A DNA stretch of 64,000 nt, taken from assembly GCA_947627285.1 (NCBI GenBank), contig CANQVL010000002.1:1-64000 (forward strand), given 5' to 3'. Both the position numbers and the translations under genes were made by a program. Source of the stretch: an uncultured Oscillospiraceae bacterium. Its GTDB lineage: Bacteria; Bacillota; Clostridia; Oscillospirales; Oscillospiraceae. Of this stretch, positions 28,808 to 61,323 are shown one piece after another (the stretch's first letter is position 1; every line of letters begins with the position of its first letter). Under the pieces are notes generated by a model. That model was not told where the DNA came from and did no database searches. It saw only the letters and a list, made by a program, of their open reading frames with translations.

Positions 28808-28911
28808 AGCGTCACCTCCTGCCGGTGTCCGAATAGGACACAAAAAGCGGACAGCCGAAGCTGTCCGCTTTGCAAGTAACGGAAATAGGTGGGGCGACAC
28901 TCCCACATCTC
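28729..28911 (-). CDS. Possible leader ORF of the integrase
   Basis: A 60-codon frame starting MWECRPTYFRYLQSGQ runs through the attenuator hairpin (28844-28871), through the 17-bp palindrome and past the integrase start in another frame. If translated, ribosomes would melt the terminator and couple to integrase. The ribosome site (GGAG directly before ATG) is poorly spaced, so translation is uncertain. Confidence 0.3.
   Translation of the reverse strand, partial: EMWECRPTYFRYLQSGQLRLSAFCVLFGHRQEVTLWSAENVSGRYRRGASSACTAARYRR
28825..28841. promoter_or_regulatory. 17-bp palindrome, site 1
   Basis: GTGTCCGAATAGGACAC, one mismatch to the consensus GTGTCCGAATCGGACAC. It lies between the leader terminator and the integrase ribosome site. 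Confidence 0.75.
28844..28871 (-). terminator. Attenuator in the integrase leader
   Basis: 12-bp arms AAAGCGGACAGC and GCTGTCCGCTTT around CGAA, followed on the minus strand by a T-run. It lies between the int promoter and the int start, so most transcripts should stop here unless relieved. Confidence 0.75.
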
Positions 28912-28980
28912 CAACGAGGGCGACGGCTGCCCGTTCCGTCCTCTATTCCCGCTTACTCCATAGTATGTTCTCTCAGCTTC

Positions 28981-29008
28981 ATTATACACGCTTTTTGATT
29001 TGTGTCAA
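28981..29008 (-). promoter_or_regulatory. Integrase promoter
   Basis: Minus-strand TTGACA (29008-29003), 16-bp spacer and TATAAT (28986-28981). The leader is about 170 nt. Confidence 0.75.
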
Positions 29009-29021
29009 TGCTTGTTGTTAC

Positions 29022-29038
29022 GTGTCCGAATCGGGCAC
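29022..29038. promoter_or_regulatory. 17-bp palindrome, site 2
   Basis: GTGTCCGAATCGGGCAC, one mismatch. It lies between predicted small RNA 1 and the integrase promoter. Confidence 0.75.
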
Positions 29039-29047
29039 ATAATTCTC

Positions 29048-29246: not shown

Positions 29247-29249
29247 TTC

Positions 29250-29510: not shown

Positions 29511-29527
29511 GTGTCCGAATCGGGCAC
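29511..29527. promoter_or_regulatory. 17-bp palindrome, site 3
   Basis: GTGTCCGAATCGGGCAC, one mismatch. It ends 1 bp from the NYN gene stop codon and separates that gene from the small RNA cassette. Confidence 0.75.
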
Positions 29528-30467: not shown

Positions 30468-30484
30468 GTGTCCGAATCGGACAT
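30468..30484. promoter_or_regulatory. 17-bp palindrome, site 4
   Basis: GTGTCCGAATCGGACAT, last base mismatched. It lies between the NYN promoter and the 3' end of the DUF4352-like gene. Confidence 0.75.
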
Positions 30485-31216: not shown

Positions 31217-31233
31217 GTGTCCGAATCGGACAC
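31217..31233. promoter_or_regulatory. 17-bp palindrome, site 5
   Basis: GTGTCCGAATCGGACAC, exact consensus. It lies directly upstream of the DUF4352-like gene; its start is 31 bp (about three helical turns) from the start of site 6. Confidence 0.8.
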
Positions 31234-31247: not shown

Positions 31248-31264
31248 GTGTCCGATTCGGACAC
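31248..31264. promoter_or_regulatory. 17-bp palindrome, site 6
   Basis: GTGTCCGATTCGGACAC, exact with a T centre, hence the reverse orientation of the consensus. Confidence 0.8.
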
Positions 31265-31379: not shown

Positions 31380-31757
31380 CTATTTCTGCCCTTCGGCGGG
31401 CGGAAAAGGCTTTCCTCCTCGCGCTGCTAATATCCCTTGGACGAAAAAATCGACCTTCTCAAGGTCCTCGGGACTCAAAGACTTCAGGTGAGCCATAATC
31501 TCAGCATCAAGGGTCTCCTCGCTGATCTCAGCGAGGGGACCTTCTTTTTCGTCTGTGAGCCCCAGAAGGTAGTCTACGGAGACGTGTAAAAAGGACGCCA
31601 GACGAACCAGCGTCTCATACGTTGGTTCACGACTTCCCGCCTCCCAACCGCCCACGGTGGACTGCGCCACGCCAAAGGCGTTGGCAAAAGACTGCTGGGA
31701 TTTGTATCCCCGCAGTTCCCTTGCCGCTTTCATTCTGACTCGAAATTCAGTATACAT
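31380..31757 (-). CDS. CI-like repressor (XRE helix-turn-helix)
   Basis: A 125-residue protein. An N-terminal HTH (residues 6-60) has SQQSFANAFGVAQSTVGGWE and the family tail VDYLLGLTD; the acidic C-terminus is probably for dimerisation. There is no peptidase domain, so induction by RecA-type self-cleavage is not expected. It is divergent from the early operon and faces the AGCGAT-type operators, so it is the likely lysogeny repressor. Confidence 0.85.
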   Translation of the reverse strand: MYTEFRVRMKAARELRGYKSQQSFANAFGVAQSTVGGWEAGSREPTYETLVRLASFLHVSVDYLLGLTDEKEGPLAEISEETLDAEIMAHLKSLSPEDLEKVDFFVQGILAARGGKPFPPAEGQK

Positions 31758-35666: not shown

Positions 35667-36509
35667 ATGGAATATAGGGGTTCATTCTTCGCGTCTACTC
35701 CTGCTACCGTTCGTCATGATAAAACTCTTCCGGGGGATGCCAAGCAGCTTTATACGGAAATTTCATCGCTTTGGAATGCGGAAGGGTATTGCTGGGCTAC
35801 AAATTCATATTTTGCCGAGATTTTTGGAGTTTCAGAGCGGACAATAAGCCGATGGGTAGCGGCTCTTGAAAAAAGGGGGTATATCCGAACTGAGCAAGCC
35901 CCTTCCGGACGTGGCTCAGAGCGGCGCATCTTTATAGGCGTCTTATTCCCTGAATCTGAAGAGGTAGACAAAAATGTCGAGGTCGACAAAAGTGGCGAGG
36001 AGGAGGTAGACAAAAATGTCTATCTCCCGAAAGGTAATATATTAAATCTTAATAATAATAAACAAGAAATAGAAGAAAAAGAAATAAAAAAGAAAAAGAA
36101 AACCGCGCCGAAGGAGCTGGACGAGGAAACCAAGGAGCTGCTCCGCGGGTATGTGGGCGACGACGGGGAGCTTCGGTTAAAGCTGGCGGACATGATAATT
36201 GCCCGAAATGAACGCGGCGCCGTCAACTCCCACAGAGCTGTCAAGGCACTGCTCAACCTGTTGGACAAGTATTCCGAGGGCAACAGGGTCCTCAAGCTGG
36301 AGCTGCTGGAAAGGGCGATCGCCAGCGGGTGGCAGACGGTATATCCCCTGAAGCCGTGGGAGGCAGCGGCGATCCTGTCGGACCTTGAAGCCGCGCCCGC
36401 AGGGTCAGACCGATTCCAATCCGCGCAGGACAGCGGGGAGAGGATAATACGACCGGAGGATTCGCCGTGGTACCGGTACAAGAAGGAGCAGGAAAATGGC
36501 AAAGTCTGA
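35667..36509 (+). CDS. DnaD-like replication initiator
   Basis: 280 residues. An N-terminal winged helix (ATNSYFAEIFGVSERTISRW with AALEKRGYIRTEQ), a Lys/Glu-rich linker encoded by an A-rich stretch (about 36030-36110), and a helical C-terminal region. It directly precedes and overlaps the DnaB-like helicase by 14 bp, the usual initiator-helicase arrangement. Confidence 0.65.
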   Translation: MEYRGSFFASTPATVRHDKTLPGDAKQLYTEISSLWNAEGYCWATNSYFAEIFGVSERTISRWVAALEKRGYIRTEQAPSGRGSERRIFIGVLFPESEEVDKNVEVDKSGEEEVDKNVYLPKGNILNLNNNKQEIEEKEIKKKKKTAPKELDEETKELLRGYVGDDGELRLKLADMIIARNERGAVNSHRAVKALLNLLDKYSEGNRVLKLELLERAIASGWQTVYPLKPWEAAAILSDLEAAPAGSDRFQSAQDSGERIIRPEDSPWYRYKKEQENGKV

Positions 36510-37878
36510 ATTCGGCGCGTCGGATATAGAGGCGGGGATCCTGGGCGGGATCCTGGTGTGGCCGGAGCACGCGGGCGAGGCGGTGTCGATGCTGAGCCCC
36601 GAAGATTTCGGCGACAGCGTCCACCGGCAGATATACGGCGTTATACTCTCCATGTACCTCAGCGATGAGCCCATAAACACCGTGACGGTCATGGAAAAGC
36701 TGGGACCTAAGGACCGGTGGGAGGACCGCCTGTTCGCCATCGTGGACAAGGGCAACGCCCAGGTAGGATATTACTGCCGGCTCCTTTTGGAGCGGAACAA
36801 GCTGACGAAGGTTCAAACCCTGGCGCTTCACATCGCCCAGGCCGCCACGCTGGAGGAGGCGCAGCCGCTCATCAGCGAGCTCATCGGCATTGAGTGCAGC
36901 GTGCGGGGCTCCGAGCCCTCCACACTGCTGGAGCTGGTGCATGAGTACGTGGAGGACCGGCAAAAGGGCGTTCCGCCGCCGGAATATCTGGATCTGGGCA
37001 TGGAGTTTCTGAACAAGACGCTGATGGTGGAGAGCGGAGACATGGTCCTCATCGGCGCACAGCCCTCGGTGGGCAAGACGGCGCTGGCTCTTCGGCTGGC
37101 TATGACGGTCTCGGAGACGAAGCGCGTGGGTTTTTTCAGCCTGGAGACCGGGAAGAAAAAGCTCACCCACCGGTCAATCTCCACTTACACCGGCATCTCC
37201 CTTAAGGACATCAAACTGTGCAGGACGAGCGATTCGGACCTGTCGAAGATCGTCGGCATGGGCATGGAGCTGGGCAATTTGGAGAGGAAGGGATCCCTGT
37301 CCATCCACCGTATGCGCGGCGCCACGGTCAAGGACATCCAGGCGCTTACGCTGAGATACCGGTACGAGGTCATCTTTGTGGATTACATACAGCTGATACG
37401 CTCCTACGGTCGGAGCCGGTACGAGGAGGTCACCAACATCTCCATGGATCTCCGAAACATCTCACCCAACGAGGGGCACGGAGTTACCATTTTCGCGTTG
37501 GCTCAGACGCACCGCGCCGAGAAGCTGGGCGGGAAGCCCATCCCTCCGGACCTGGATTCCTTGAAGGAGAGCGGACAGCTGGAGGCGGACGCCGACGTGG
37601 TCATGCTCCTTTACCGGGCAAACGAGTTGGACAAATACTCGCCCAGGGTGTTGAAGGTCGCCAAGAACAAGGAGGGCGAGCTGGGGGAGTGTATGCTGGA
37701 CTTCGACGGCGCCTGCCAGAGGTTCACGGAGATGTCGCCGCAGCGTGTGGCGGCATGGAGGGAGATCAACGCCAAGTATGAGGCGAAAAAGAGAGCCGAG
37801 AAGAAGGCGGCAAAGGCCGGCGGCGATCAGATGGGAATGGTCGAGATAGTCGAGCCGGATCCCGATTTGCCGTTTTGA
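36496..37878 (+). CDS. dnaB: Replicative DNA helicase, DnaB-like
   Basis: 460 residues. N-terminal helical domain, then a RecA-type core with Walker A GAQPSVGKTALA (residues 187-198), Walker B VIFVDYIQLI, and the sensor region ESGQLEADADVVMLLYR. The C-terminus is a Lys/Ala-rich tail. It unwinds the phage fork after loading by the upstream initiator. Confidence 0.93.
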   Translation: MAKSEFGASDIEAGILGGILVWPEHAGEAVSMLSPEDFGDSVHRQIYGVILSMYLSDEPINTVTVMEKLGPKDRWEDRLFAIVDKGNAQVGYYCRLLLERNKLTKVQTLALHIAQAATLEEAQPLISELIGIECSVRGSEPSTLLELVHEYVEDRQKGVPPPEYLDLGMEFLNKTLMVESGDMVLIGAQPSVGKTALALRLAMTVSETKRVGFFSLETGKKKLTHRSISTYTGISLKDIKLCRTSDSDLSKIVGMGMELGNLERKGSLSIHRMRGATVKDIQALTLRYRYEVIFVDYIQLIRSYGRSRYEEVTNISMDLRNISPNEGHGVTIFALAQTHRAEKLGGKPIPPDLDSLKESGQLEADADVVMLLYRANELDKYSPRVLKVAKNKEGELGECMLDFDGACQRFTEMSPQRVAAWREINAKYEAKKRAEKKAAKAGGDQMGMVEIVEPDPDLPF

Positions 37879-37891
37879 GGAGGTGCCGGAC

Positions 37892-38101
37892 ATGCTGACA
37901 AAAACACGCTGTCTCGACCTTTTGCGGGGCGAGATACGCAGATATGAAGCGATGGCGCGGCTGGCGCCTACTGAGTGGCAGCGCAACGACTACATCGAGC
38001 TCGCCCAGGCTCTCACCGAGGCCGCGGCAGCTCTGAGAGGAAGGAGGGGAAGCTTTTGGTCAAGGTTGGCGACAAAGTACGCTTTGTTCCGGGAGGACTG
38101 A
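37892..38101 (+). CDS. Small phage protein, unknown
   Basis: 69 residues, helical and basic (RCLDLLRGEIRRYEAMARLA). ATG 37892 follows GGAGGTG. No recognisable domain. Confidence 0.55.
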   Translation: MLTKTRCLDLLRGEIRRYEAMARLAPTEWQRNDYIELAQALTEAAAALRGRRGSFWSRLATKYALFRED

Positions 38102-38238
38102 CAGACAGCGGGCACGAGGTCAGCCGCCGGGCGGTGACCGGCACGGTGAGTTGGGTCAACGAGGCACACCGCACCTACGGCGTGGAAGCCGAGCTGGGCA
38201 GCCGCGGGTACAGATACCGCGAGACGTTCAAATTTTAA
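38056..38238 (+). CDS. Small beta-rich phage protein (SH3-like)
   Basis: 60 residues from TTG 38056 with GGAGGGG upstream; overlaps the preceding gene by 46 bp. KVGDKVRFVPGG and TGTVSWVNEAHRTYGVE suggest a small barrel. Function unknown. Confidence 0.5.
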   Translation: MVKVGDKVRFVPGGLTDSGHEVSRRAVTGTVSWVNEAHRTYGVEAELGSRGYRYRETFKF

Positions 38239-38257
38239 GACATCGAGGAGGTAAACC

Positions 38258-39034
38258 ATGAGGACAATAGCGATCATGAATCTCAAGGGCGGGGTGGCAA
38301 AGACCACCACCACGGTGAACGTGGCGGCGATCCTCGCCCGGGACCACAAAAAGCGGGTGCTGGTGGTGGACGCCGACAGCCAGTGCAACACGACGGAATT
38401 TTTCGGCGCGGACCCAGAGAGCGGGAACCTGGCGCGGGCGCTTAAAATCTCCTGGGGCGGGGAGCTCTTCGCGGTACAGCAGATACAGCGGACGGACCGG
38501 GACGGGGTGGACATCCTGCCGGGGAGCGAGGAGCTCATGGATCTGGGCCTTTCGGGTGTGGAGGACAAGGCGGTGGACGCGGAGATCCTGCGGAAGCTGG
38601 TGCGCGAGCTGGAGGTCGTGGACAGATACGACTTCTGCCTCATCGACTGCCCGCCGGCGTTCAACGCCGCCAGCGCCGCGGCGCTGCTGGCGGCAGGAGA
38701 GGTGCTCATACCAATAAAACTGGACGCCTTCTCCCTTCGCGGCATGACCAACCTCATGCGGCAGATCTACAACATGCAGGAGATAAACCCCGCGCTGGAG
38801 CTTCTGGGCTTTTTGCCCACCATGTGGTACCCGTGCCGCTATACGCACGATGCCGAAAAAACGCTCCGGGACGGCGGGTATACGGTACTCCCTCACATCC
38901 GGCGGACGGACAAGGCGGACGCCATGACCTTTGATCAGCGGCCGCTTATTGAGACGAGCCCCCGCTGTGCCGCGGCGGTGGATTACCGCCGGCTTGTGCG
39001 GGAGCTTTTGAAGGGAGGCGGCGGGAATGGCTGA
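38258..39034 (+). CDS. parA: ParA-type partition ATPase
   Basis: 258 residues with deviant Walker A KGGVAKTTT (residues 10-18), VLVVDADSQCNTT and the DCPPAF switch. GGAGG before ATG. Its stop overlaps the parB start by 8 bp. With ParB and the dispersed 17-bp palindromes this suggests an active partition system in the prophage, perhaps for a plasmid-like state. Confidence 0.9.
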   Translation: MRTIAIMNLKGGVAKTTTTVNVAAILARDHKKRVLVVDADSQCNTTEFFGADPESGNLARALKISWGGELFAVQQIQRTDRDGVDILPGSEELMDLGLSGVEDKAVDAEILRKLVRELEVVDRYDFCLIDCPPAFNAASAAALLAAGEVLIPIKLDAFSLRGMTNLMRQIYNMQEINPALELLGFLPTMWYPCRYTHDAEKTLRDGGYTVLPHIRRTDKADAMTFDQRPLIETSPRCAAAVDYRRLVRELLKGGGGNG

Positions 39035-40661
39035 GGCGAAGGGCTTTAACCTTGCAAAGGCTCTGGGCAGTGTGTCCAAATCGGACACCGAGCGGATCGA
39101 GCGCATAGACATTGACCGGCTGGGCGACGACCCGAAAAATTTCTACTCCCTCTCGGACCTGGACTCCCTCGCGGAGAATATCGAGCTGGTGGGGCTCCAG
39201 CAGCCGTTACGGGTCCGCCCCGACAGGGAGGCGCACGGGTATTACATAATCGTCTCAGGTCACCGGCGCCGGGCGGCGATCCGGAAGCTTGTGGACGACG
39301 GCAGGGAGGACCTGCGGCAGATCCCCTGCATTGTGGAGCAGCCGGCAGAGTCCGAGGCTATGCAGGAGCTTCGGCTCATCTTCGCCAATTCCGGCACCCG
39401 TAAGCTCACGGACCCGGAGATCGCCGCCCAAGCGGACAGGGTGCAGGAGCTCCTATACAGGCTCAAGGAGGAGGGCTACGATTTCCCCGGTCGTATGCGT
39501 GACCATGTGGCGGAGGCGTGCCAGGTGAGCCGGTCAAAGCTTGCGCGGCTGAAGGTTATCGAAATGGGCCTCCGCGGTGAGGTGAACCAGCTGTGGCATG
39601 AGGGCAAGATCAACGAGTCCGCCGCCTACGCTTTGGCGCGGATGTCGGAGAATATTCAACACCGTATCCTCACTGTCTGCCGCGGCAAGTACCCGGACGG
39701 CAACACGCTGGAGCGCGTGGTCAAAGCCTATAAGGACGGCATACGGTGGGGAACCGATGGCGGGCTTACATGCCCTGACGGGAAAGACTGCACCTACGCC
39801 AACGGCTTCCTCCGGACTTTCATTGATTCCCCCTGGCGAGAGTGTGACGGGTCCCGGTGCTGTATCACCTGCCGCTATGGACCGCGCGGAGATTACAACT
39901 CCTGCGACCGGATGTGCTCAAAAGCAAAGGTTGTACGAAAAGACATGATAGAAAAGGAAAGGTCCAAAGAGAAGCGTGCGCAGGAAAAACGGACAACTGC
40001 GGCGCAGCGGGGCACGGTCCCCAACGCCCGCAGGGTCCTGAGAGCCATAGACGCGGCGGGGCTCGCGGATGATGTACGGATACCGTGGGTGTATAGCAAT
40101 CAGTTTCCGGTGTCGGTCATTCGCAAGTGGGCGGACGGCGACTTTTCCGAGGGCTGGTACGATCATTACATATCTCCTCTTCTCGGCGTGGAATCCCTTA
40201 GCTGTGCGCTTGATGCGGCAAAGCTCCTAAAGTGCTCCGCCGACTATCTGCTGGGGCTCACCGATGAGCTCCATCCGACGGCTGCGCCGGCGGGGTATAT
40301 CACGGACCGGGACCCGGACGGACCGACTGAGGCGATGGTGCTGATGGATTACGGGCTCAACAAGCCTTTCCGCACCACGGCGGAGTGGGACGGGCAGGCG
40401 TGGCGGTCCGGCGGACAAGTCCTGCCGGACAAGGTGCTGGGCTGGTACCCGATCCCAAAGACACCGGATATACCGAAGTCGCCGGCAAGCAGCGTGAATC
40501 CGGAAATCGTCGAACGTTCTCTATGCTGCACGGGGTACTCCCCATCCGGCTACTGCGGCGCCGCGGCAGCCTGCGGCGAGATTTATAGCTGCTGTTCCCA
40601 GTGTGACGAGGACTGCAATTCCAGATGCGGGTGGATCCCCGAGGAGGAAAAACATGAGTAA
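39027..40661 (+). CDS. parB: ParB-like DNA-binding protein with long Cys-rich C-terminus
   Basis: 544 residues. The ParB/Srx domain (about 25-130) has PLRVRPDREAHGYYIIVSGHR and a KorB-like HTH region follows (RDHVAEACQVSRSKLARLKV). The C-terminal half is unusual: a DYLLGLTDE motif typical of phage HTH proteins and clustered cysteines (CDGSRCCITCRYG; CCSQCDEDCNSRCG). One 17-bp palindrome lies inside the gene at codons 16-21. The C-terminus may bind zinc; its role is unknown. Confidence 0.8.
   Translation: MAEAKGFNLAKALGSVSKSDTERIERIDIDRLGDDPKNFYSLSDLDSLAENIELVGLQQPLRVRPDREAHGYYIIVSGHRRRAAIRKLVDDGREDLRQIPCIVEQPAESEAMQELRLIFANSGTRKLTDPEIAAQADRVQELLYRLKEEGYDFPGRMRDHVAEACQVSRSKLARLKVIEMGLRGEVNQLWHEGKINESAAYALARMSENIQHRILTVCRGKYPDGNTLERVVKAYKDGIRWGTDGGLTCPDGKDCTYANGFLRTFIDSPWRECDGSRCCITCRYGPRGDYNSCDRMCSKAKVVRKDMIEKERSKEKRAQEKRTTAAQRGTVPNARRVLRAIDAAGLADDVRIPWVYSNQFPVSVIRKWADGDFSEGWYDHYISPLLGVESLSCALDAAKLLKCSADYLLGLTDELHPTAAPAGYITDRDPDGPTEAMVLMDYGLNKPFRTTAEWDGQAWRSGGQVLPDKVLGWYPIPKTPDIPKSPASSVNPEIVERSLCCTGYSPSGYCGAAAACGEIYSCCSQCDEDCNSRCGWIPEEEKHE
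39072..39088. promoter_or_regulatory. 17-bp palindrome, site 7 (inside parB)
   Basis: GTGTCCAAATCGGACAC, one mismatch, within the coding sequence for SVSKSDTE near the ParB N-terminus. Confidence 0.75.
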
Positions 40662-40875
40662 TGGCATCCCTGAAAATGAGCGCGCATTTATGTCCGTGGA
40701 GCTCGGCAAGCTGCTGCGGGAACAGGAGATTATCGTCTCGGTGACCCTGCCCGACGGCTCCCTTGAGCCGGTAATAATGACGAATATGTTCGACAGTGAC
40801 ATCCGGACGCTCCTTTTGCCGGTTGTCATGTCCATTGGCTTGAAGACAGCGTTCGTCGAATGTTCCCGCTTTTAG
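40654..40875 (+). CDS. Small phage protein, unknown
   Basis: 73 residues from ATG 40654 after GGAGG, overlapping the parB end by 8 bp. MSVELGKLLREQEIIVSVTL and LLLPVVMSIGLKTAF. No domain recognised. Confidence 0.55.
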   Translation: MSNGIPENERAFMSVELGKLLREQEIIVSVTLPDGSLEPVIMTNMFDSDIRTLLLPVVMSIGLKTAFVECSRF

Positions 40876-41003
40876 CGCCCGAATCGATACACGGAAGTAT
40901 TGATGAATACACGGAAATCATCCGCCAGGATTTGCATAACGCAAGTGACAGGTATCTCGCCGAGGCGGGGAAGAAGGAGGCGGACGATGGAAAGACTGAC
41001 TGA
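40860..41003 (+). CDS. Possible very small phage protein
   Basis: 47 codons (MFPLLAPESIHGSIDEY...) bridging the 111-bp gap between two better-supported genes and overlapping both. Composition is protein-like (EIIRQDLHNASDRYLAEAG), but no good ribosome site precedes it. Confidence 0.35.
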   Translation: MFPLLAPESIHGSIDEYTEIIRQDLHNASDRYLAEAGKKEADDGKTD

Positions 41004-41199
41004 ACGGAGCTGGAGGGAGATGTCGCCGGATGAGTGCGGGGCGCGCCTTTGCAGGTGCCGGCCGGCGGACGGCTGCGCCGGGTGCCGTGTGCCCAGGCTG
41101 TACGCCAGGCTCGCGGTCTATGAGGACTCAGGTCTGGATCCCGACGCCCTGCGCGTCCTCCGTCCGGTGAAGGTGAAACGGAGGAGGGCACGGAGATGA
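40987..41199 (+). CDS. Small cysteine-containing phage protein
   Basis: 70 residues starting MERLTERSWREMSPDE, a beginning frequent in clostridial phage proteins. Five Cys (CGARLCRCRPADGCAGC) suggest a metal site. GGAGG before ATG 40987. Confidence 0.6.
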   Translation: MERLTERSWREMSPDECGARLCRCRPADGCAGCRVPRLYARLAVYEDSGLDPDALRVLRPVKVKRRRARR

Positions 41200-41453
41200 A
41201 GATCGAGATAACCGGCGGCAGAGCCGGCTGTTCAGTGCGCGGGAGCGCTGATTCGGATGAACTGCTTTACGCAATCGAGCTTTTGGTCCGTGTCTTTGCC
41301 ACGTCCGCCCGTCAGATAGGAGCACAGGAGGATGCTATCTTTGACGCCTGTTTCTCCGCGGCTGCGAACGGATTCGCCGAAAACCCAACCGCAACCGGCT
41401 CGTTTGTGCTCACCGACCTGAGCAAGATGGGAGGGACAGGGAATGAAAAATGA
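41196..41453 (+). CDS. Small phage protein, unknown
   Basis: 85 residues overlapping the preceding gene by 4 bp. KIEITGGRAGCSVRG strand region then a helical part; no named domain. Confidence 0.55.
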   Translation: MKIEITGGRAGCSVRGSADSDELLYAIELLVRVFATSARQIGAQEDAIFDACFSAAANGFAENPTATGSFVLTDLSKMGGTGNEK

Positions 41454-41622
41454 AGAGGCTTTGAGGGTCATCGAGACAAAGCTGGCGTGCTTGAGCCGGG
41501 ACCCTGAGCTCTGCTCCCTGGACACCTGCATATTCTGCGATTATTTCGTCGGTCGTGAGCTTAAAGATGCCCTCCAAGTTGCCGCGAAGGTTTTGCGGGA
41601 GGTTGTGGAGGCGGAGGAGTGA
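41443..41622 (+). CDS. Small Cys-rich phage protein
   Basis: 59 residues from ATG 41443 after GGGAGGG. MKNEEALRVIETKLACLSRD, then the motif CSLDTCIFCDYF. The CxxxxCxxC pattern recurs in at least four neighbouring proteins up to 43.3 kb. Stop TGA at 41620-41622. Confidence 0.55.
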   Translation: MKNEEALRVIETKLACLSRDPELCSLDTCIFCDYFVGRELKDALQVAAKVLREVVEAEE

Positions 41623-41627
41623 GCGGG

Positions 41628-41963
41628 ATGAATGATGAAGAAGCTGTGGACGTGCTTCGGCGGTACGTGCGCTGCCTTACGGGGATGCCTACCTTTTGCC
41701 GGACCTCGGATTGCCAGAAGTGCGAGCTGTTTTCCGACAGGCACGCCACGGTTCAGGCTTTAATGCTGGGTGCCCAGGCGTTGGAAGATCGGATACGTGA
41801 ACCACCGGAGGTTGTGTACTGCCGGGACTGCGACCTGGAGGGAACGATATACTGCAAGCTTACCAAAATTGAGAATGCGAGGCTCGAATTCCTCGACCAT
41901 CCGCTTGACTGGTTCTGTGCGGATGGGGTTAAAAGGGAGAAGCCGGAGGCAGATCGGGAATGA
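41628..41963 (+). CDS. Small Cys-rich phage protein
   Basis: 111 residues. CRTSDCQKCELFSDRHATVQ near residue 25 and a second cluster YCRDCDLEGTIYC and WFC toward the end, probably zinc-binding. ATG 41628 sits about ten bases after GGAGG. Confidence 0.6.
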   Translation: MNDEEAVDVLRRYVRCLTGMPTFCRTSDCQKCELFSDRHATVQALMLGAQALEDRIREPPEVVYCRDCDLEGTIYCKLTKIENARLEFLDHPLDWFCADGVKREKPEADRE

Positions 41964-41985
41964 AGATGAAGAAGCTGATGAGCGT

Positions 41986-42276
41986 ATGTACATAATGATT
42001 GAAGGCGAAACGCAGATAATTAACTCCGAATTTGTCGAGCGGTTCTGCCTGGTTGAGAAGCCGGACGCGGCACTTGTGGTTGCAAGTTATCGGGATGATC
42101 GACCGCCTGTGACGATGGCGCGGTATTCCCGTAAGGATGAGGCTCAAGACGCCCTTTGCGAGCTCTTTAAGGCATTGGCAGGGGGACAGGCATACTTCTA
42201 TATGCCACTCAGCCGCCTGACTAATCCGGATAGAAAAGTCCATGATGCTCGCACAAAAAGAAAAGGAGGAAGCTAA
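41986..42276 (+). CDS. Phage protein, unknown
   Basis: 96 residues (MYIMIEGETQIINSEFVERF). Ordered alpha/beta pattern with SYRDDRPPVTMARYSRKDEA. The ribosome site is weak and ATG 41995 is an alternative. Function unknown. Confidence 0.5.
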   Translation: MYIMIEGETQIINSEFVERFCLVEKPDAALVVASYRDDRPPVTMARYSRKDEAQDALCELFKALAGGQAYFYMPLSRLTNPDRKVHDARTKRKGGS

Positions 42277-42279
42277 ATC

Positions 42280-42363
42280 ATGTCGAGACAGCTCACGGAG
42301 GCAATCGCCTATATGGAGGCGTCGCGGGAGGACAAGCCGGAGCTTTTGGAGGTGAAAACGTGA
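42280..42363 (+). CDS. Tiny phage ORF
   Basis: 27 codons (MSRQLTEAIAYMEASREDKP...) with a strong AAAGGAGG site. It ends overlapping the next gene by 4 bp, which supports translation, perhaps as a coupling peptide. Confidence 0.4.
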   Translation: MSRQLTEAIAYMEASREDKPELLEVKT

Positions 42364-47930: not shown

Positions 47931-49671
47931 GCTTTTGACGCTGGCGCCGGGGATAACGGTGCCCGTACCGGAGGACGGGGATGAGCTGCGCTACAGTGAG
48001 GACAGCGCAGGGCTCGTCCGGAGGTTCTTCTCCCTTCTGGTCTACGGTCAAAACGAATGGGCGGGACAGCCCTTCCGACTGGAGCCGTGGGAGATCGAGG
48101 CAATCGACAGCTTCTACGGTATCCAGGTCCGGGACGACGACGGGAGCTGGGTCCGGTACCGGCGGTACCTCTACGAGGAGCTGCCGAAAAAGAACGGCAA
48201 GAGCGAATTCGCCGCGGGGCTGGGGCTCTATCACCTCATCGCGGACGGGGAGACGCGTCCGAATGTGGGTCTCTTCGCCACGGATAAGGTAAACGCGGAC
48301 ATCATCTACCAGTGCGCCAAGTACATGGTGGAGCACACCGCCCTGGGACAGCCGGCGGGCAATCCGCTGGTCTGGTGCCGGGACAGCGTCAGGGAGATCC
48401 GTACACGGTACGGCGGGGTGCTGAAGGTGTACTCCTCCGACGTGGAAAACAAGCACGGCTTTTCCTTCTCCGCCATCATTATCGACGAGCTGCACACCTG
48501 GGCAAAGCGGGAGCTGTGGGACGTGCTTACTGCGGGCTCGGACGCCGCCAGGCGCCAGCAGGCGGTGATCGTGCTGACCACCGCGGGGGACGACCCCGAC
48601 CGCAAGTCCGTGGGCTGGGAGAAGCACGAAAAGTGCCGGCGGATACTTGCCTGGCGTGAGGGACACCCCGAGAGGGAGCTGGACAGGGACGACCCCCAAT
48701 GGCTGCCCATCATGTACGGGATCTCGGTGCTCACGGGAGACGACCCCGACAGGATAGCGGAGCTGGACATATACGACGAGGAGCTGTGGAAGCGGTGCAA
48801 TCCCTCCTACGGCATAACCATAAAGCCCAGGCAGTTCCGAGCCGAGGCCCGCGCCGCGCGGCAGTCGGAGGCGGAGGAGCGGAATTTCCGGTGGCTCAGG
48901 CTCAACCAGTGGATCGCCACCGGCGTGGTCGGATGGGTGCCCGTGACTATCTACGACAAGACCCAATTCAACATGCCGGAGTGGGACGGCCTCAACGCTA
49001 TGGAGCGCCGGCGAGCCGTGAGGGAGTACCTGAGGGGTAAAAAGTGTTACGGAGGGCTGGACCTTTCCACAACCACGGACCTTGCGTCCCTTGTGCTTTG
49101 CTTCCCGCCTCAGCCGGGGCTGACCACCTGGGTGGCGCTGTTCTGGGCGTGGCGTCCGCTGGATGGCGTCGCTGAGGCTGAGCAGCGCGACCACGTGCCC
49201 TACCGGGACTGGGCAAGAGCGGGGTTTTTGGAGCTGTGCGAGGGCGACATGAACGACTTTACCCAAATCGAGGACACGGTGAAGTGGTGCGCGGCGTCCT
49301 TCAAGCTCCTGAAACTGGGCGTTGACCCGTACCTGAGCCGGACGCTGACGCAGCGGCTTGCGGCGGCGGGCGTGGAGCTTATGGAGATACCGCAGACGCT
49401 TCTCTCCATGAGCCCCGCCACAAAGGAGCTGGAGCGGCTCATCCGCGCCCACGAGATGCTCCACGAGCACAACACCTGCGCCCGCTGGTGCTTCGGCAAC
49501 GTCCGGTGCATTACGGACAGCAACGAGAACCAGCGCCCCACGAAGAAAAAGAGCATAGGGCGCATTGACATCACCGTCGCCTGGATCATCTGTATGGCGG
49601 CGGCAATGGTGGACATGGCGAAGCCTCCGGATCTGAAGACCGCAATCGCCTCCGGAGGATGGTCAATGTGA
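47923..49671 (+). CDS. terL: Terminase large subunit
   Basis: 582 residues starting at GTG 47923, overlapping terS by 8 bp. ATPase motif ELPKKNGKSEFAAGLGLYHL (Walker A-like), FSAIIIDELHTW (Walker B) and a C-terminal nuclease region (GGLDLSTTTDLASLVL). It drives packaging and cuts the concatemer. Confidence 0.95.
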   Translation: MPELLTLAPGITVPVPEDGDELRYSEDSAGLVRRFFSLLVYGQNEWAGQPFRLEPWEIEAIDSFYGIQVRDDDGSWVRYRRYLYEELPKKNGKSEFAAGLGLYHLIADGETRPNVGLFATDKVNADIIYQCAKYMVEHTALGQPAGNPLVWCRDSVREIRTRYGGVLKVYSSDVENKHGFSFSAIIIDELHTWAKRELWDVLTAGSDAARRQQAVIVLTTAGDDPDRKSVGWEKHEKCRRILAWREGHPERELDRDDPQWLPIMYGISVLTGDDPDRIAELDIYDEELWKRCNPSYGITIKPRQFRAEARAARQSEAEERNFRWLRLNQWIATGVVGWVPVTIYDKTQFNMPEWDGLNAMERRRAVREYLRGKKCYGGLDLSTTTDLASLVLCFPPQPGLTTWVALFWAWRPLDGVAEAEQRDHVPYRDWARAGFLELCEGDMNDFTQIEDTVKWCAASFKLLKLGVDPYLSRTLTQRLAAAGVELMEIPQTLLSMSPATKELERLIRAHEMLHEHNTCARWCFGNVRCITDSNENQRPTKKKSIGRIDITVAWIICMAAAMVDMAKPPDLKTAIASGGWSM

Positions 49672-49694
49672 TGGCTCCGCCCTTTGGGGCGGCG

Positions 49695-49711
49695 GTGTCC
49701 GAATCGGACAC
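49695..49711. promoter_or_regulatory. 17-bp palindrome, site 9
   Basis: GTGTCCGAATCGGACAC, exact consensus, 24 bp after the terL stop codon and 10 bp before structured element c. Confidence 0.8.
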
Positions 49712-49721
49712 AAAGAAAAGC

Positions 49722-49792
49722 AGAGTCGAGAGTCTTGAAGACCACAGACCGAATACCGGACGAAGGGTCCGGCTTTCGGTCTGTGTTTTTTT
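49722..49792 (+). ncRNA. Structured element c with terminator
   Basis: AGAGTCGAGA, GTC-TTGAA-GAC (49732-49742), then hairpin CACAGACC/GGTCTGTG (49743-49785) with an inner CCGGAC/GTCCGG stem and a run of seven T. It sits between terL and the portal operon. Confidence 0.7.
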
Positions 49793-49804
49793 GGAGGTGG
49801 TTTT

Positions 49805-50029
49805 TTGAAGACAAAAAAGGCGAGGGACAAGCCTTCGGCCTTGCGGCGGGGAATTGAGCGGGCGGCGCGGCGTTGGGGCGCCGATCTGCTGCTGGTCGCC
49901 GGCGCCGTCATGGTCTCCGTGGGCGCCGCGCTGATCTACGCCCCCGCGGGGTGGCTCGCCGGCGGCGCGCTGACTATTGTCGGCGGCGTCCTGGCGGCAC
50001 GGGGAGAGTCCGGAGGTGACAGCGGATGA
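49805..50029 (+). CDS. Small membrane protein
   Basis: 74 residues from TTG 49805 after GGAGGTGG. A basic N-terminus, then one or two membrane helices (LLLVAGAVMVSVGAALIY, WLAGGALTIVGGVLAA). It lies between terminase and portal; holin-like features are weak and I do not call it a holin. Confidence 0.6.
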   Translation: MKTKKARDKPSALRRGIERAARRWGADLLLVAGAVMVSVGAALIYAPAGWLAGGALTIVGGVLAARGESGGDSG

Positions 50030-51330
50030 TATTTGACAAAGGCTTGCGCAAAAAGGGCGCTATCGGTCTGGCGGCGAGGACGCTGACACTGGAGAGCGCC
50101 GACGGGTGGGACCTGGACAGGGTGTCCATGAGCACGGACAAAGCACTGAAGGTGTCCACGGTGTACCGGTGCGTGGATCTGATCTCCTCCTCCATGGCGC
50201 TCCTGCCCCTGTATATCATGCGGGAGACGGACAAGCGGCGCTTCCCCGATCACCACCTGGGGCAGGTCCTTTGGGGGCGCGCTAACGAGGCCATGACAAC
50301 CTTTGACTACGCCCGCCTCATGGAGCGGACGGTGCTCCTGAGGGGAAATGCCTTCGCCTACATAGACAGGGACCCCGCCACCGGCTGGCCCAGGGAGCTC
50401 ATTCCCATGGATCCGGGTCTGGTGTCCACATTCCAGGAGAGAGACGGGGCCATCTGGTACAGCTACGCCAACCCGCGCACGGGGGACGTCACCCGCCTGT
50501 GGCCCGAGGACGTTCTCCACTACAAGGGACCCAGCGCCGACGGGATTTCCGGAGCCTCGGTGCTCACCAGCGCCGCTATGACCGTGAGCACGGCGCTGGC
50601 GGCACAGCAGCAGCAAACGGACCTCTACACCAACGGCGGACAGCCCTCCGGCGTCCTGACGGTGGATACGGATCTGGGAGGCACGGCGGAGGTGCCCGGG
50701 CCAGATGGGACCGTCACAAAGATCCCCATCAAGGACCACATTCGGAACGAATGGTACAAAAACCACGGACCTGGGAAGGGTTTCCGGATATGCGTTTTGG
50801 ACAACGGGCTCAAATATCAGCCCATCGGTCTTTCCAACGCCGACGCGCAGTTTGTGGAGTCGGAGGAGCTGAGAGTAGCGGATATGTGCCGGTTTTTCGG
50901 GGTGCCGCTCCATATGGCATACGCGGGAAAGCAGGCATATTCCTCCAACGAGCAGTCGAGCCTTGAGTACGTCAAGTACACCCTTCAGCCGAAAATCACG
51001 GACAGGGAGCAGGAGGACACCTACAAGCTGCTCCTGCCCTCGGAACGGGAAAAGGGGCTGCGGATCCGCCGGGAGGTCAAGGCGTTCCTCCGCGGCGACA
51101 CGGCGGCTCAGTCGGCGTGGTACAGGACCCTCCGGGACATCTCGGTATACTCGCCCGACGACATCCGCGCGCTGGAGGATCTGCCGAACGTGCCGGGCGG
51201 AGATACCAGGTACGCCAATCTCAATAATATCCCGCTGGAGATGTTCCGGGAGCTCTCGGTCATGAGAGCCCGCGGGCAGAACGGCGGAGAAGCGGAAAAC
51301 GAAGGAAGCGGAGGTGAAGAAAATGCCTAA
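50026..51330 (+). CDS. Portal protein, HK97 family
   Basis: 434 residues. VSTVYRCVDLISSSMALLPL, RTVLLRGNAFAYIDRDP and FFGVPLHMAYAGKQAYSSNE are typical of HK97-like portals, the dodecamer at the capsid vertex through which DNA enters and leaves. It overlaps the preceding gene by 4 bp. Confidence 0.93.
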   Translation: MIFDKGLRKKGAIGLAARTLTLESADGWDLDRVSMSTDKALKVSTVYRCVDLISSSMALLPLYIMRETDKRRFPDHHLGQVLWGRANEAMTTFDYARLMERTVLLRGNAFAYIDRDPATGWPRELIPMDPGLVSTFQERDGAIWYSYANPRTGDVTRLWPEDVLHYKGPSADGISGASVLTSAAMTVSTALAAQQQQTDLYTNGGQPSGVLTVDTDLGGTAEVPGPDGTVTKIPIKDHIRNEWYKNHGPGKGFRICVLDNGLKYQPIGLSNADAQFVESEELRVADMCRFFGVPLHMAYAGKQAYSSNEQSSLEYVKYTLQPKITDREQEDTYKLLLPSEREKGLRIRREVKAFLRGDTAAQSAWYRTLRDISVYSPDDIRALEDLPNVPGGDTRYANLNNIPLEMFRELSVMRARGQNGGEAENEGSGGEENA

Positions 51331-52027
51331 GGAGAACATGGGAGCGGTGCTGAAGGGCGCGGAGGTGTTGAAGGCGGGGGAGCTCACCGACGGCGATCTT
51401 GCGCTCATAAACCGGCAGACATTGCGGACGCTCTCCACCGAGGAGGTTTATACCTTCCGGCTGGCTGCCTGCGGCAACAGGGTAGACAGGGACATAGAGC
51501 GGTTCACCGATCGATCCCTGGACGACATGGCGGTGCTGTTTGTGGGGAAAACGGTGATCTCGGACCACCGGTGGAGCTCCGGCGAACAGATCGCCAGGGT
51601 GTACGCCGCGGCGGTGGAGGCTGGCGCGGGCGGAGACAAGCGGCTGGTGCTCAGCTGCTACCTGCCGCGCAACGAGTCAACCAAGACGCTCATCGACGCC
51701 ATCGACGCCGGTATCCTGCGGGAGGTCAGCGTGGCGGTGCGGGTGAAGCGGTACACCTGTTCCATCTGCGGCAAGGACTATCTGGGATCGGATTGCCCGC
51801 ATGTCCGGGGGCTGGAATACGCTGGAAAGACCTGTCACGTGGAGCTGGATGGGGTCTCGGACGTCTATGAGGTCTCGTTTGTGGCGGTGCCGGCACAGCC
51901 GGAGGCGGGCGTCATCAAGAGGTACGAGGTCAAGGAGAACGCCCCGGAGAAGAAACCCGAGGCGAAAGAGAAACCAATGCTCAGGATGGCAAGAGCTTTC
52001 CTTGAGCTTGAAAAAATGAGATTTTGA
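51323..52027 (+). CDS. Prohead protease-like protein with zinc finger
   Basis: 234 residues from ATG 51323 after GGAGGTG. It has a protease-type core (GKTVISDHRWSSGEQ, VSVAVRVKRYTC, YEVSFVAVPAQPEAGV) interrupted by a Cys cluster (CSICGKDYLGSDCPHVRG). It lies between portal and capsid, the normal place of the maturation protease. Confidence 0.75.
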   Translation: MPKENMGAVLKGAEVLKAGELTDGDLALINRQTLRTLSTEEVYTFRLAACGNRVDRDIERFTDRSLDDMAVLFVGKTVISDHRWSSGEQIARVYAAAVEAGAGGDKRLVLSCYLPRNESTKTLIDAIDAGILREVSVAVRVKRYTCSICGKDYLGSDCPHVRGLEYAGKTCHVELDGVSDVYEVSFVAVPAQPEAGVIKRYEVKENAPEKKPEAKEKPMLRMARAFLELEKMRF

Positions 52028-52043
52028 AAGGAGTCAGTTAAAA

Positions 52044-53222
52044 ATGAGCATCAAAAGCAAACTGTTGGAGCTGAAGAACACCCGCGCCGGTCTTCTCAAG
52101 GAGGCCGAGACCGCCCTGGAGAGCGGCGACATGGAGACCCACAAGGCAAAGATGGACGCCGCGAAGGGGTACAATGACCGAATCCAGGCCGCCGAGGACC
52201 TGATGGCGGAGCAGGAGAGGTACGGACTGCCCACCCCCGAAGAGAAGGCCGGTAATCCCCAACTCGGAGACGGTCAGGGCGACAGCTGGAAGATGGCGGT
52301 GAAATCCTTTGCCGCGGCTGCCAGAGCCGGGTTTAAGGTCAGCAAGGCCCAGGGGGATGCCCTCCAGGAAGGCCAGGACGTGGACGGCGGCTACACCGTG
52401 CCGGATGACATCGTGGGTGCAGTCGAGAAATTCCGTGACGCTGAGGAGAGCCTGCTGAGCCTCGTGACCATCAAGAGGGTCAAGAAGCTTAAGGGCGCCA
52501 GAACGTTCAAAAAGCGCAAACAGCATAAGGGCTTCTCTACGGTTGCCGAGATGGGGAAGATCCCCAAGGTCGAAGGTCCTGAGTTCACCCGGATCGAGTA
52601 CAATATCGAGAAACGCGCCGGCTTCCTTCCCGTGACCGACGAGCTGCTGGAGGACTCTGACGCGGATATCGCTCAGGAGGCCGTGGAATGGCTCGGCGGC
52701 GAAGCGCGGGTCACGGCTAACACCGAGATCGTGAATGTGGTCAAGGCCAAAGGCGGCACGGACTTGAAGACCATCGACGACATCCTCAACGCCTGGATCA
52801 AACTGGGTACGCCCTTCCGCAGAACCAGCTCCGTTATCACCAACGATTCCGGGCTCATGTGGCTGGTGACCCAGAAGGACAAAAACGATCGTCCGCTCCT
52901 TCAGCCGAATCCCGCCCACCCGGAAAAGCTTCAGCTGTGTGTCGGTCCCTTCACCATCCCCGTGGTTTCCTTCGATGACGATACCATCCCCAACGAGGAC
53001 ACCAAGGTGCCCTTCATCATCGGCGATCTGAAGGAGGGCGTTATCTATTGGGATCGCAGAAAGCTGACGTTGACTATGTCCAAGGTTGCCGTAGCCGGCG
53101 ACTTCAACGCTTTCGAGCAGGATATGACCCTGTGGAAGGGCACCATGCGCGACGACTGCGTGGAGCGCGACGGCGATGCCTACGTATACGGGCAGGTTGA
53201 CACCGCCGGCGTCGGCGGTTGA
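52044..53222 (+). CDS. Major capsid protein, HK97 fold
   Basis: 392 residues. An N-terminal coiled-coil scaffold-like region (about 1-90), then the HK97 core (DGGYTVPDDIVGAVEKFRDA, RAGFLPVTDELLEDSDADIA, VAGDFNAFEQDM). AAAGGAG before ATG. Confidence 0.93.
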   Translation: MSIKSKLLELKNTRAGLLKEAETALESGDMETHKAKMDAAKGYNDRIQAAEDLMAEQERYGLPTPEEKAGNPQLGDGQGDSWKMAVKSFAAAARAGFKVSKAQGDALQEGQDVDGGYTVPDDIVGAVEKFRDAEESLLSLVTIKRVKKLKGARTFKKRKQHKGFSTVAEMGKIPKVEGPEFTRIEYNIEKRAGFLPVTDELLEDSDADIAQEAVEWLGGEARVTANTEIVNVVKAKGGTDLKTIDDILNAWIKLGTPFRRTSSVITNDSGLMWLVTQKDKNDRPLLQPNPAHPEKLQLCVGPFTIPVVSFDDDTIPNEDTKVPFIIGDLKEGVIYWDRRKLTLTMSKVAVAGDFNAFEQDMTLWKGTMRDDCVERDGDAYVYGQVDTAGVGG

Positions 53223-53232
53223 GGTGGACGGT

Positions 53233-53673
53233 ATGGCGAGGAAGACTGAAAGCCCCGCTGAGGCGGCTGTGGCGGCCTCTGAGGGCGATTTGAAGGTTGA
53301 GACGCATACCAACCTGCCCGACGCGGCAGAAGCGGCGTCAGCGGCGCCTGCGGCTCCTCAGGGCGTGCCGGGACCTGACCCGACTGTCGAGCCCGACGGC
53401 GTGGACGAGGCGGCGGCGGAGGAGTACGGCAAGGTCGAGGACAAGCTCCTGCGTGTTTCGTATCCCAAGGGCGTCGGTGTCAACCTGCGCATCGGACCGG
53501 GACTCAGATTTGCCGTGAAGCAGGTCCTTCCCAACGGCGTGACGGTGCGGGAGCTGGCGCTGCCGGACTACGCCGCGGTGCCCGGCTGGGTGTGCGTGGA
53601 GGCGGAGACGGTACCCGGAGCCGCGGTATTCGGCTGGGTCGACGCCGGCTTGGTCGAAGAGGTCGATATTTGA
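53233..53673 (+). CDS. SH3-like virion-associated protein
   Basis: 146 residues. An Ala/Pro/Glu-rich N-terminus and a C-terminal SH3-type domain (KGVGVNLRIGPGLRFAVKQV, VPGWVCVEAE). It could be a head decoration or wall-contacting protein. ATG 53233 after GAGGTG. Confidence 0.6.
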   Translation: MARKTESPAEAAVAASEGDLKVETHTNLPDAAEAASAAPAAPQGVPGPDPTVEPDGVDEAAAEEYGKVEDKLLRVSYPKGVGVNLRIGPGLRFAVKQVLPNGVTVRELALPDYAAVPGWVCVEAETVPGAAVFGWVDAGLVEEVDI

Positions 53674-53675
53674 GC

Positions 53676-53692
53676 GTGTCCGAATCGGACAC
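53676..53692. promoter_or_regulatory. 17-bp palindrome, site 10
   Basis: GTGTCCGAATCGGACAC, exact consensus, starting 3 bp after the preceding stop codon and ending before the ribosome site of the connector gene. Confidence 0.8.
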
Positions 53693-53710
53693 GCGGAAGG
53701 GGGGAGAGGA

Positions 53711-54034
53711 TTGGCTCATGATCTGGACGCCATTAAAGGCTATATGCGGTTTGACGACCTGGCGGAGGGGCTGAGCGAGGATGAGGTCAGCGCCCAGGAG
53801 TCCATCATAATCGCTCTTGCCGCCGGCGCGGTGGAATATTTGCGCAACGCCGGAATCCCGGAGCCGGAGGAGACCTCGGAGCTTTACGACCTGGCGGTGA
53901 AATCGCTGGTCCTCCACTGGTACGACCACCGTGACGACGTGGGAAGCGAGTCCTCCGTCCCCAACGGGATACGCCCCGTCATCACGCAGCTCAAGCTCGT
54001 CGCCGCGGCGAAAAGAGCCGGAGGCGTCACATGA
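53711..54034 (+). CDS. Head-tail connector protein (Gp6-like)
   Basis: 107 residues from TTG 53711 after GGGGGAGAG. LDAIKGYMRFD and EDEVSAQESIIIALAAGAVE fit small head-tail connectors forming the ring below the portal. Confidence 0.8.
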   Translation: MAHDLDAIKGYMRFDDLAEGLSEDEVSAQESIIIALAAGAVEYLRNAGIPEPEETSELYDLAVKSLVLHWYDHRDDVGSESSVPNGIRPVITQLKLVAAAKRAGGVT

Positions 54035-59432: not shown

Positions 59433-59433
59433 G

Positions 59434-59832
59434 ATGGATTATATAAAGCTCAACGGTATCTCCTTTGACACGGAGGTCGCCATATCCGCGTACAAACGGA
59501 CGCTGAACGCGGTACACGGGGACAACGCCGGGCGGGTGATGTCGGGGAAGATGATCCTGGACCCCATCGCCGCCTACTACGGCAGGAACGTCACGGTATT
59601 CCGGCGCGGGAACAACTACAAGGGGCTCGACGACTTCTGGGATTTCCTCGCCGCCCACATCCTGGACGACCGGGGCGTGCTTCTTGAGGCGGCGGACGGT
59701 CAGACCACCGTGTCAATGCGGTGCTACTACTCCTCCGCGGAGCAGGACCTTGAGTCCGTGGACGGGGGTATCAATTACTGGGGACCCATCTCCGTCAACT
59801 TCATCCCCATCGATCCGCAGGTGACGCCATGA
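59434..59832 (+). CDS. Small tail protein, unknown
   Basis: 132 residues from ATG 59434 after GGAGGG. LNGISFDTEVAISAYKRTLN and a beta-rich core. Its place between tape measure and baseplate suggests a distal-tail or adaptor role. Confidence 0.6.
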   Translation: MDYIKLNGISFDTEVAISAYKRTLNAVHGDNAGRVMSGKMILDPIAAYYGRNVTVFRRGNNYKGLDDFWDFLAAHILDDRGVLLEAADGQTTVSMRCYYSSAEQDLESVDGGINYWGPISVNFIPIDPQVTP

Positions 59833-61283
59833 GTAAGACGTCGGTTTTTTACAAGGACATAGCGCCGGGGGCGGCGGAGAACGCGGAGTTTTTGCCCTCG
59901 GGGGAGTCGGAATTTTCGGACACGGGGCTTTTGAGGCGGGAGACCGCGGCGCGGGCGATGGCGACGGGGGAGTGGAACGAGTGGATCCTGGACGGGTCCG
60001 TCTCGCCCTTCACCGGGGAGGACATACCCTTCTGGTCGACGGAGCTTTCCGGCGAGGACTGCCTTTTTGAGCATCCCCCCTCCCTGGATATACGCTTTAC
60101 GAAGCAGTTCGCCTCTCTGGGGATAACCCTTGTGTTCAACGACGCCACGTTTACCTGGGCGTCGCGGGTGGGCATCAGGTGGTACCAGGGGGAGCAGCTG
60201 AGGGCGGACAGGGAATACGAGCCCACGGGACAGAGCTTTTTCTGTCAGGAGAAGGTGGAGGCGTTCGACAGGATAGTCATCACCTTCCTGAGGACGAGCC
60301 TGCCATGCAAGTATCTGAAGCTCCAGCAGGTCATATTCGGGATATACCGGACCTTCGGCATGGGGGAGATCCGCAGCGCGAGGGTGACGAATCAGATGAA
60401 CCGCGCGTCCCTGGAGCTGCCCGTGAGCACGCTGTCGTGGACAATAGACAGCGACGACGAGCTGGGCTTTATGTTCCAGTTCAAACAGCCCATGGAGGTG
60501 CGCAACGACGGGTTCCTCATCGGCGTCTATTACATAACCGACAGCAAGCGGCGGCACAGGAGGGTCTACGACCTCACCTGTCAGGATGCGCTGGGGGTTT
60601 TGGACGGGGACACCTTCGCCGGAGGGTATTACAGCCGCGTCTCCGCCATGGCGCTCCTGCGGGAGATCCTGGGCGGGGACTTTGACGTGGATTTCACGGA
60701 CGTGGAGGACACGGCGCTCACGGGGATAATCAAGCCCATGACGAAGCGCGCCGCCATACAGCAGGTCGCCTTCGCCTGGGGCGTTTGCGTCGCCACGGAC
60801 GGCGGAGAGGTCATACGCGTGTTCAATTTGGACACAACGCCGGAGGCAGTGGGCAGAGACCGGACCTACACCGGCGTGACGGTGACCACCGCCGCCATGG
60901 TGACAGCCGTGAGGGTGACGGCGCACAGCTACACCCCCGCGGAGAACGGGAGCGTGGAGGTGGGCGGCGTGAAGTACGCCGACGCCACTCAGGTCTTTGA
61001 GGTGCGCAACCCCGACGTCACCGCCAACACGCGACAGAACGTGAAGGAGGTCAAGGAGGCGACGCTTGTCTCTCCGGACATCGGCGCCGCCGCCGCGAGG
61101 AGGGTGTACGGCTACTACTCCCTCAGAGACACCGCCAAGGCGCGGATCGTGTGGCGCGGGGAGCTGCTGGGGGACTGCGTGACGCTTCCCTCAAGCTGGG
61201 ACGCCGAGCCCACGGGGAACATCGAGCGCATGGACTATGTGCTCTCCAACACCGTGGCGGCGGAGGTGGAGGTATTGGCTTAG
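59829..61283 (+). CDS. Tail/baseplate hub-like protein
   Basis: 484 residues overlapping the previous gene by 4 bp. N-terminal beta-sandwich region, centre with [20 protein letters not shown] and [18 protein letters not shown]. The C-terminal part resembles phage hub or tail-associated proteins ([20 protein letters not shown]). Likely the hub to which the fibre attaches. Confidence 0.65.
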
Positions 61284-61306
61284 TATACCCCCCCACCACT
61301 TTTTTC

Positions 61307-61323
61307 GTGTCCGAATCGGACAC
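61307..61323. promoter_or_regulatory. 17-bp palindrome, site 11
   Basis: GTGTCCGAATCGGACAC, exact consensus, between the hub-like gene and the tail fibre gene. Confidence 0.8.

Follow-up and report, generated by a model that had tools for sequence, protein, structure and literature searches.

Which protein reads a 17-bp palindrome that is scattered in many copies along an integrated prophage, and what are so many copies used for? Eleven copies of the palindrome GTGTCCGAWTCGGACAC were located in the window (the whole 64,000-nucleotide stretch of DNA analysed) and 13 in the whole assembly at ≤2 mismatches. The prophage also encodes a ParA and a ParB, and the original prediction had taken the palindromes for dispersed parS sites of a phage ParABS system. 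Our comparisons support this, as the palindrome was absent from the rest of the host assembly and tracked with the ParB, and judging from sequence we consider it likely, with a probability of about 0.88, that the palindromes are parS, the DNA targets of the ParB of the same prophage.

Palindrome sites in the prophage

The prophage ends in a 63-nt exact repeat (27441-27503, attL on the + strand, and C2:71112-71174) that overlaps tRNA-Ser(GCT), with a tyrosine integrase (27653-28807, - strand; Pfam PF00589) encoded just inside. In a scan of the 2.81-Mb assembly (95 contigs, 98.7% complete), all 13 copies of the palindrome fell within C2:28825-67890 and none was found elsewhere, so that the confinement to the prophage proposed earlier holds for the assembly. 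The reversed-pattern control gave no matches in the whole 2.81-Mb assembly at ≤2 mismatches. Within the window, a scan at ≤3 mismatches returned 12 matches compared to a mean of 0.19 in shuffles; one of these (60819), a candidate twelfth site with 3 mismatches inside a tail gene, was not counted. The scan recovered all 11 predicted site coordinates. It also returned the predicted two exact copies with centre T, but four rather than five exact copies with centre A, the fifth lying past the window end at C2:67117.

Four copies with one mismatch each were located at the left end of the prophage: 28825-28841, just upstream of the ribosome-binding site of the integrase gene; 29022-29038, 14 nt upstream of a leftward promoter-like site with 12/12 consensus (29008-28981); 29511-29527, adjoining the end of an NYN-domain gene; and 30468-30484, which precedes a leftward promoter-like site (30378-30350) by approximately 90 nt. 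An exact copy (31217-31233), located 16 nt before a zinc-ribbon/DUF4352 gene begins, was paired with a second exact copy with centre T (31248-31264). The copy at 39072-39088 (one mismatch) lies in the 5' end of parB, where it encodes VSKSDT, and occupies the same region as the site of relatives. The remaining copies in the window were exact and were found at the 3' end of a small ORF (43932-43948, centre T), 24 nt past the terminase stop codon (49695-49711), in a 37-nt gap 5' of the head-tail adaptor gene (53676-53692) and between genes in the tail region (61307-61323). Two further copies, C2:67117 (exact, centre A) and C2:67874, lie past the window end.

According to the gene calls of this analysis, 11 of the 13 copies were wholly non-coding compared to 24% of 17-mers (p = 6e-6), in agreement with the expectation that most sites lie in gene gaps, and for the right arm alone this was the case for five of seven sites (p = 0.005). 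The central base gives nine of the 11 window copies the same orientation, as had been counted before, but this bias was not significant (p ~0.07) and both centres occur in relatives; it was therefore given no weight. Spacing between 31217 and 67117, taking one site per cluster, was more even than random (CV 0.23, P 0.001), with the cluster collapsed post hoc, and all 13 sites together showed no evenness (P 0.55). Even spacing was clear in one of seven other phages tested (G020, P 0.011). Given the post hoc collapse and the result for all 13 sites, we do not claim even spacing as a property of the sites.

A C-rich word, ATACCCCCMCCC (≤1 mismatch), was observed on the + strand near the tail genes (C2:61285, 67138, 67852, 67895 and 69325), with three or four copies close to a palindrome site; it had six matches in L014, both strands included, compared to 0.3 expected. 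The late region of the prophage also encodes a radical SAM protein (PF04055; C2:65773-67095, equivalent to L014:5773-7095), which is preceded by a 121-aa protein without a Pfam match.

The ParA-ParB pair

The prophage carries a parA (38258-39034, + strand) coding for a 258-aa ParA-type ATPase (Pfam AAA_31, E 6e-39; phrog_164) and, directly downstream with an 8-nt overlap, a parB (39027-40661, + strand) coding for 544 aa. Both genes follow a DnaB-like helicase (36496-37878, + strand) in the rightward module. The ParB consists of a ParB_N/CTPase-type domain, a ParB DNA-binding domain, a Cys cluster, an HTH-like region and a C-terminal part. PF02195 matched just over its cut-off, with a GHRR motif in the ParB_N domain, and TIGR00180 matched below its cut-off; for the HTH-like region itself, Pfam gave no HTH match. 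An AlphaFold2 model of the protein (mean pLDDT 72, with all ten-residue blocks from 21 to 220 above 80) matched the structures of Caulobacter ParB, Noc, Spo0J and RK2 KorB (Foldseek probability 1.00), the matches including 6t1f, 7nfu and 1vz0 and, for KorB, 8qa9 and 8qa8. Domain matches and gene positions confirm that the ParA, the ParB and the palindrome inside parB are all real, and the locus shares with type I ParABS systems a ParA-type Walker ATPase, a ParB directly downstream of it with a ParB_N fold and an HTH DNA-binding domain, and a conserved palindrome at the par locus that tracks with the ParB. A second ParB_N-like protein (45812-47470), assigned to phrog_620 (ParB-like) with PF02195 below its cut-off, is encoded just before the terminase genes.

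The pair resembles chromosomal ParABS (Spo0J/Noc, parS TGTTTCACGTGAAACA) in its small ParA, in a ParB with N-terminal CTPase-type and HTH domains and in a palindromic site near parAB. It differs in that the word is unrelated and of odd length (17 bp), is carried by a phage and occurs in 13 copies in 44 kb, and also in the Cys cluster and long C-terminal part of its ParB. The palindrome was rejected as a chromosomal parS of the host, since its word differs from the canonical one and the ParB of the host (C6:42855) has its own parS, two exact canonical copies (C6:44043 and 44081) located about 1 kb away.

Association of palindrome and ParB across phages

The exact palindrome was found in at least 120 viral stretches (IMG/VR scan). 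Among the matches listed, ParA (36) and ParB (32) were the most frequent tblastn matches of the window proteins compared, which were those of the gene-caller set, without the CI-like repressor, the NYN gene and the DUF4352 gene. An iterated profile search of the listed motif stretches detected ParA at 35 loci and ParB at 33. The ParB family was encoded, again among the matches listed, in 30 of 41 long motif records (E ≤ 7e-41), defined as listed motif contigs of ≥25 kb; the L084 contig (25.9 kb), which encodes the ParB, was overlooked. Of the 11 ParB-less motif records among these matches, three (G045, G052, G064) look like fragments with mainly late genes and six others have one exact site each, with neither ParA nor ParB seen. 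In the last two (G039 and G042) a DUF3102 protein follows ParA, ParB was not detectable and the palindrome is present in four and six copies. Phages that keep the motif and lack both this ParB and the CI-like repressor had been named beforehand as evidence against the parS reading; such cases do exist, but as a minority only, represented by G039 and G042.

The association was also observed when starting from the protein. ParB-seeded scans returned 58 viral and 32 genome loci, and the palindrome was present at ≤1 mismatch at 40 and 23 of these, respectively. As the ParB profile (A2) had been built from the ParBs of motif-bearing contigs, the 15 loci whose contigs the motif scan had already returned were left out, after which 25 of 43 viral loci had a site at ≤1 mismatch. 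With 200 permuted palindromes the average was about 0 ParB loci and the maximum 1. A strong palindrome around the ParB match start was detected at 77 of 94 loci (near-duplicates included; region scored, -250 to +150) compared to about 2% of random windows, a background that was drawn from these loci and itself contains genuine dispersed sites. Together with the 30 of 41 motif records, this largely bears out the expectation that palindrome and ParB track with each other across phages. The palindromes at the 77 loci were positioned 28-126 nt upstream or 30-45 nt downstream of the ParB match start; the other 17 had no high-scoring site near parB, and several of them have one farther off. Many ParB loci displayed a single site only, adjoining parB, and in some relatives the palindrome also lies inside the parB coding sequence. 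ParA was encoded within 2 kb upstream of ParB at 59 of 60 loci, the exception (L151) being one where a different ORF had been taken as ParB. The ParBs of relatives are 17-42% identical to that of the window, at loci with a G+C content from 25% to 66%, and the palindrome is still recognisable. Among 300 genomes of the bacterial family, 14 (own genome included) had the palindrome at ≤1 mismatch, and as the reversed control had single sites in 13, single-site matches are near chance; two or more sites were found in seven genomes compared to none for the reversed control.

The palindrome varies symmetrically. Paired changes in the two arms keep the symmetry (GTGACC..GGTCAC, GTGTAC..GTACAC, GTGTTCA..TGAACAC, GTATCC..GGATAC, GTGCCC..GGGCAC), and where the strict word was absent, fully symmetric variants occupied the place at the parB start, namely GTGTTCAATTTGAACAC in Sporomusa prophages and GTGTCCAAGTTGGACAC in L149. 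Paired changes of this kind characterize sites that a protein dimer recognises. Dispersed copies were also closer to the parB-proximal copy of their own phage than to those of others (mean distance 0.97 compared to 1.56), which was reached in 0 of 5000 permutations across 25 phages, a figure inflated by related Lachnospiraceae phages.

Two groups of phages were used as controls. Relatives of the terminase had a site at ≤1 mismatch of the strict motif in one of 16 cases, and in 10 of 16 when two-arm variants were allowed, so this control was not clean; a site was present in four of four with a ParB in the stretch examined and in six of 12 without (Fisher p = 0.23). Three of these six were fragments of <8 kb and L139 has a ParA-DUF3102 arrangement. 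DUF3102 phages are the cleaner negative control. The motif was present without ParB at four of 20 DUF3102 loci, and under the relaxed rule no palindrome was found in the other 16, including all 13 without a ParA found. DUF3102 directly 3' of ParA, in the place of ParB and with the palindrome kept, was observed at L244:2288-3274, L296:8166-9263, L285:8436-9419 and L287:4342-5430, and the N-terminal part of the ParA-adjacent DUF3102 proteins has a structural likeness, without sequence support, to the ParB DNA-binding domain. No paper using the term DUF3102 was found in the literature searched.

The 13 copies in the prophage of the window were the maximum, with 0-6 counted in other phage records. 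A site was positioned 282-315 nt after the inferred start of the head-tail adaptor in nine of 10 motif loci with an adaptor homologue (34-47% identity in the nine, the loci having been chosen for the motif), and just before the gene in the window. The Flavonifractor phage Cormatin (ON453905), described as one of 13 induced prophages of a gut consortium (PMC10197239), has DnaB, ParA and ParB in the same order as the window and an exact palindrome in the parB 5' end plus three copies of GTGTCCAAGTTGGACAC, thus four sites rather than 13, and its ParB is annotated as a hypothetical protein. Several ParB loci are located far from the ends of contigs that measure hundreds of kilobases to >1 megabase (e.g., L211, L215, L216), so that integration is probably not peculiar to this prophage. 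ParB-CTPase-DUF3850 fusions encoded beside parA in phages are described in PMC12704722, where an RNA-related role is suggested. DUF3850 was carried by two of the 31 ParBs aligned, both with an adjacent ParA, and the ParB of the window is without it. In both fusions (L071:6239-7909 and L024:6390-7742, - strand) the palindrome was found at the parB 5' end, with one mismatch in L024.

Proposed use of the sites

One alternative, which we regard as possible if rather doubtful, accepts the sites as parS and makes gene control of the kind exerted by KorB their main use, with partition secondary. ParB would slide from the dispersed sites to promoters or block them, keeping the integrase and the leftward accessory genes off or tuning the late genes. 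In RK2, KorB, a relative of ParB, silences genes from proximal and distal operators, its OB sites lying both near and far from the target promoters, as described in PMC11790492. However, RK2 is a plasmid in which KorB works with KorA, whereas the window holds an integrated prophage where such silencing is putative. The leftward integrase/accessory region holds six of the 13 sites, including the one before the integrase ribosome-binding site, the one 14 nt from the consensus promoter-like site and the two beside the DUF4352 gene start. Also consistent with gene control is an HTH_3/HTH_19 match after the ParB domains in the ParBs of two related phages, over the cut-off in G043 (E ~1e-7) and just under it in G048; the ParB of the window aligns through this region, ending with KLLKCSADYLLGLTDE, but has diverged there. 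By contrast, none of the four right-arm sites between 36000 and 54000 falls on a promoter- or terminator-like site, and the single parB-adjoining site of many ParB loci also argues against gene control as the main use. A C-terminal repressor-type HTH_3/HTH_19 match was observed in the ParBs at L305:126-1850 (- strand; over the cut-off) and L304:323-1753 (- strand; just under), both with a Cys cluster between this match and the ParB domains.

It is very unlikely that the sites are operators or stoperators of the CI-like HTH_3 repressor (31380-31757, - strand), as in mycobacteriophage L5, which the original prediction had offered as the alternative. Their location in gene gaps, with several near promoter-like sites, would suit such a role. 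However, the repressor, which was compared with the motif records separately, gave weak, generic HTH matches in 21 of the 41 listed motif records (best E 3e-14), a few of them falling on the C-terminal part of ParB itself, and so does not track the palindrome as ParB does; the recurring place of the site is moreover the parB 5' end. The L5 stoperator sites are asymmetric and directional, unlike the palindromes of the window. The repressor was therefore rejected as the reader of the motif.

Still less likely is that the phage replication initiator (REP_ORF2-G2P; 44241-44948) uses the palindromes as its origin or binding sites. It ranked third in the listed motif stretches (21 of at least 120), but this reading was rejected because the initiator is also encoded at many phage loci that lack the motif (e.g., L298-L303). 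Least likely of all, RNA hairpins or intrinsic terminators were rejected, since although the word can fold into a stem of 7 bp with a 3-nt loop and T-rich DNA follows four left-arm copies on the + strand, none of the four sites in 36000-54000 scored as a terminator, some copies lie inside the parB coding sequence and frequent one-arm changes (e.g., GTGACC..GGACAC) break a stem pair.

The palindromes are therefore best read as putative parS sites that belong to an uncharacterised ParABS family of Firmicute phages; in this prophage they are unusually many, and most of them are intergenic. We infer binding by ParB from its family membership and from the association of the motif with ParB. A ParB dimer would use its central helix-turn-helix domain to read the two 8-bp arms, load at the palindrome as a nucleotide-dependent clamp and then spread along the DNA, and the nearby ParA would move or position the ParB-coated DNA. 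Clamp loading and sliding are established for relatives. For an integrated prophage the need for ordinary partition is not evident. From the position of parAB in the rightward module, next to the DnaB helicase, the main target of the system is most likely the excised phage DNA, while it replicates or during a transient plasmid-like phase, rather than the integrated copy. What the sequences show directly are the sites, their confinement to the prophage, the ParA-ParB operon and the association and symmetric variation across phages; the clamp action, its timing and any reason for the 13 copies are proposals.

ParABS systems, multiple phage centromeres and dispersed operators of the ParB family, as in KorB, are already known kinds. 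The centromere sites of phage N15, four in number, are scattered over its genome. Its SopAB is a phage ParABS system with four inverted-repeat centromere sites, as described in PMC7205306. The earlier comparison with N15 fits in the layout of the sites but not in the state of the prophage, as N15, with its four sites, is a linear plasmid prophage and the prophage of the window is integrated at tRNA-Ser between its 63-nt att repeats, with 13 sites mostly between genes. Mycobacteriophage RedRock is similar in having parABS in a temperate phage and is described in PMC7157519 as being without an integrase and as having parS loci made up of clusters of 8-bp direct repeats.

What is new is the palindrome word, its spread over diverse Firmicute phages and the number and intergenic placement of the sites in an integrated prophage; none of the three forms of the palindrome was found printed in the literature searched. 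Also new is the link to the phage ParB fusions lately described, for which the part of PMC12704722 consulted gives no DNA target. The palindrome would provide a concrete DNA target, testable at once, for a large uncharacterised group of Firmicute-phage ParA/ParB pairs, and this target covers the ParB-DUF3850 fusions that were recently suggested to be RNA-related. It also sharpens a question, as integrating phages are inherited with the chromosome: why do they keep a partition system, and here one with 13 centromere-like copies?
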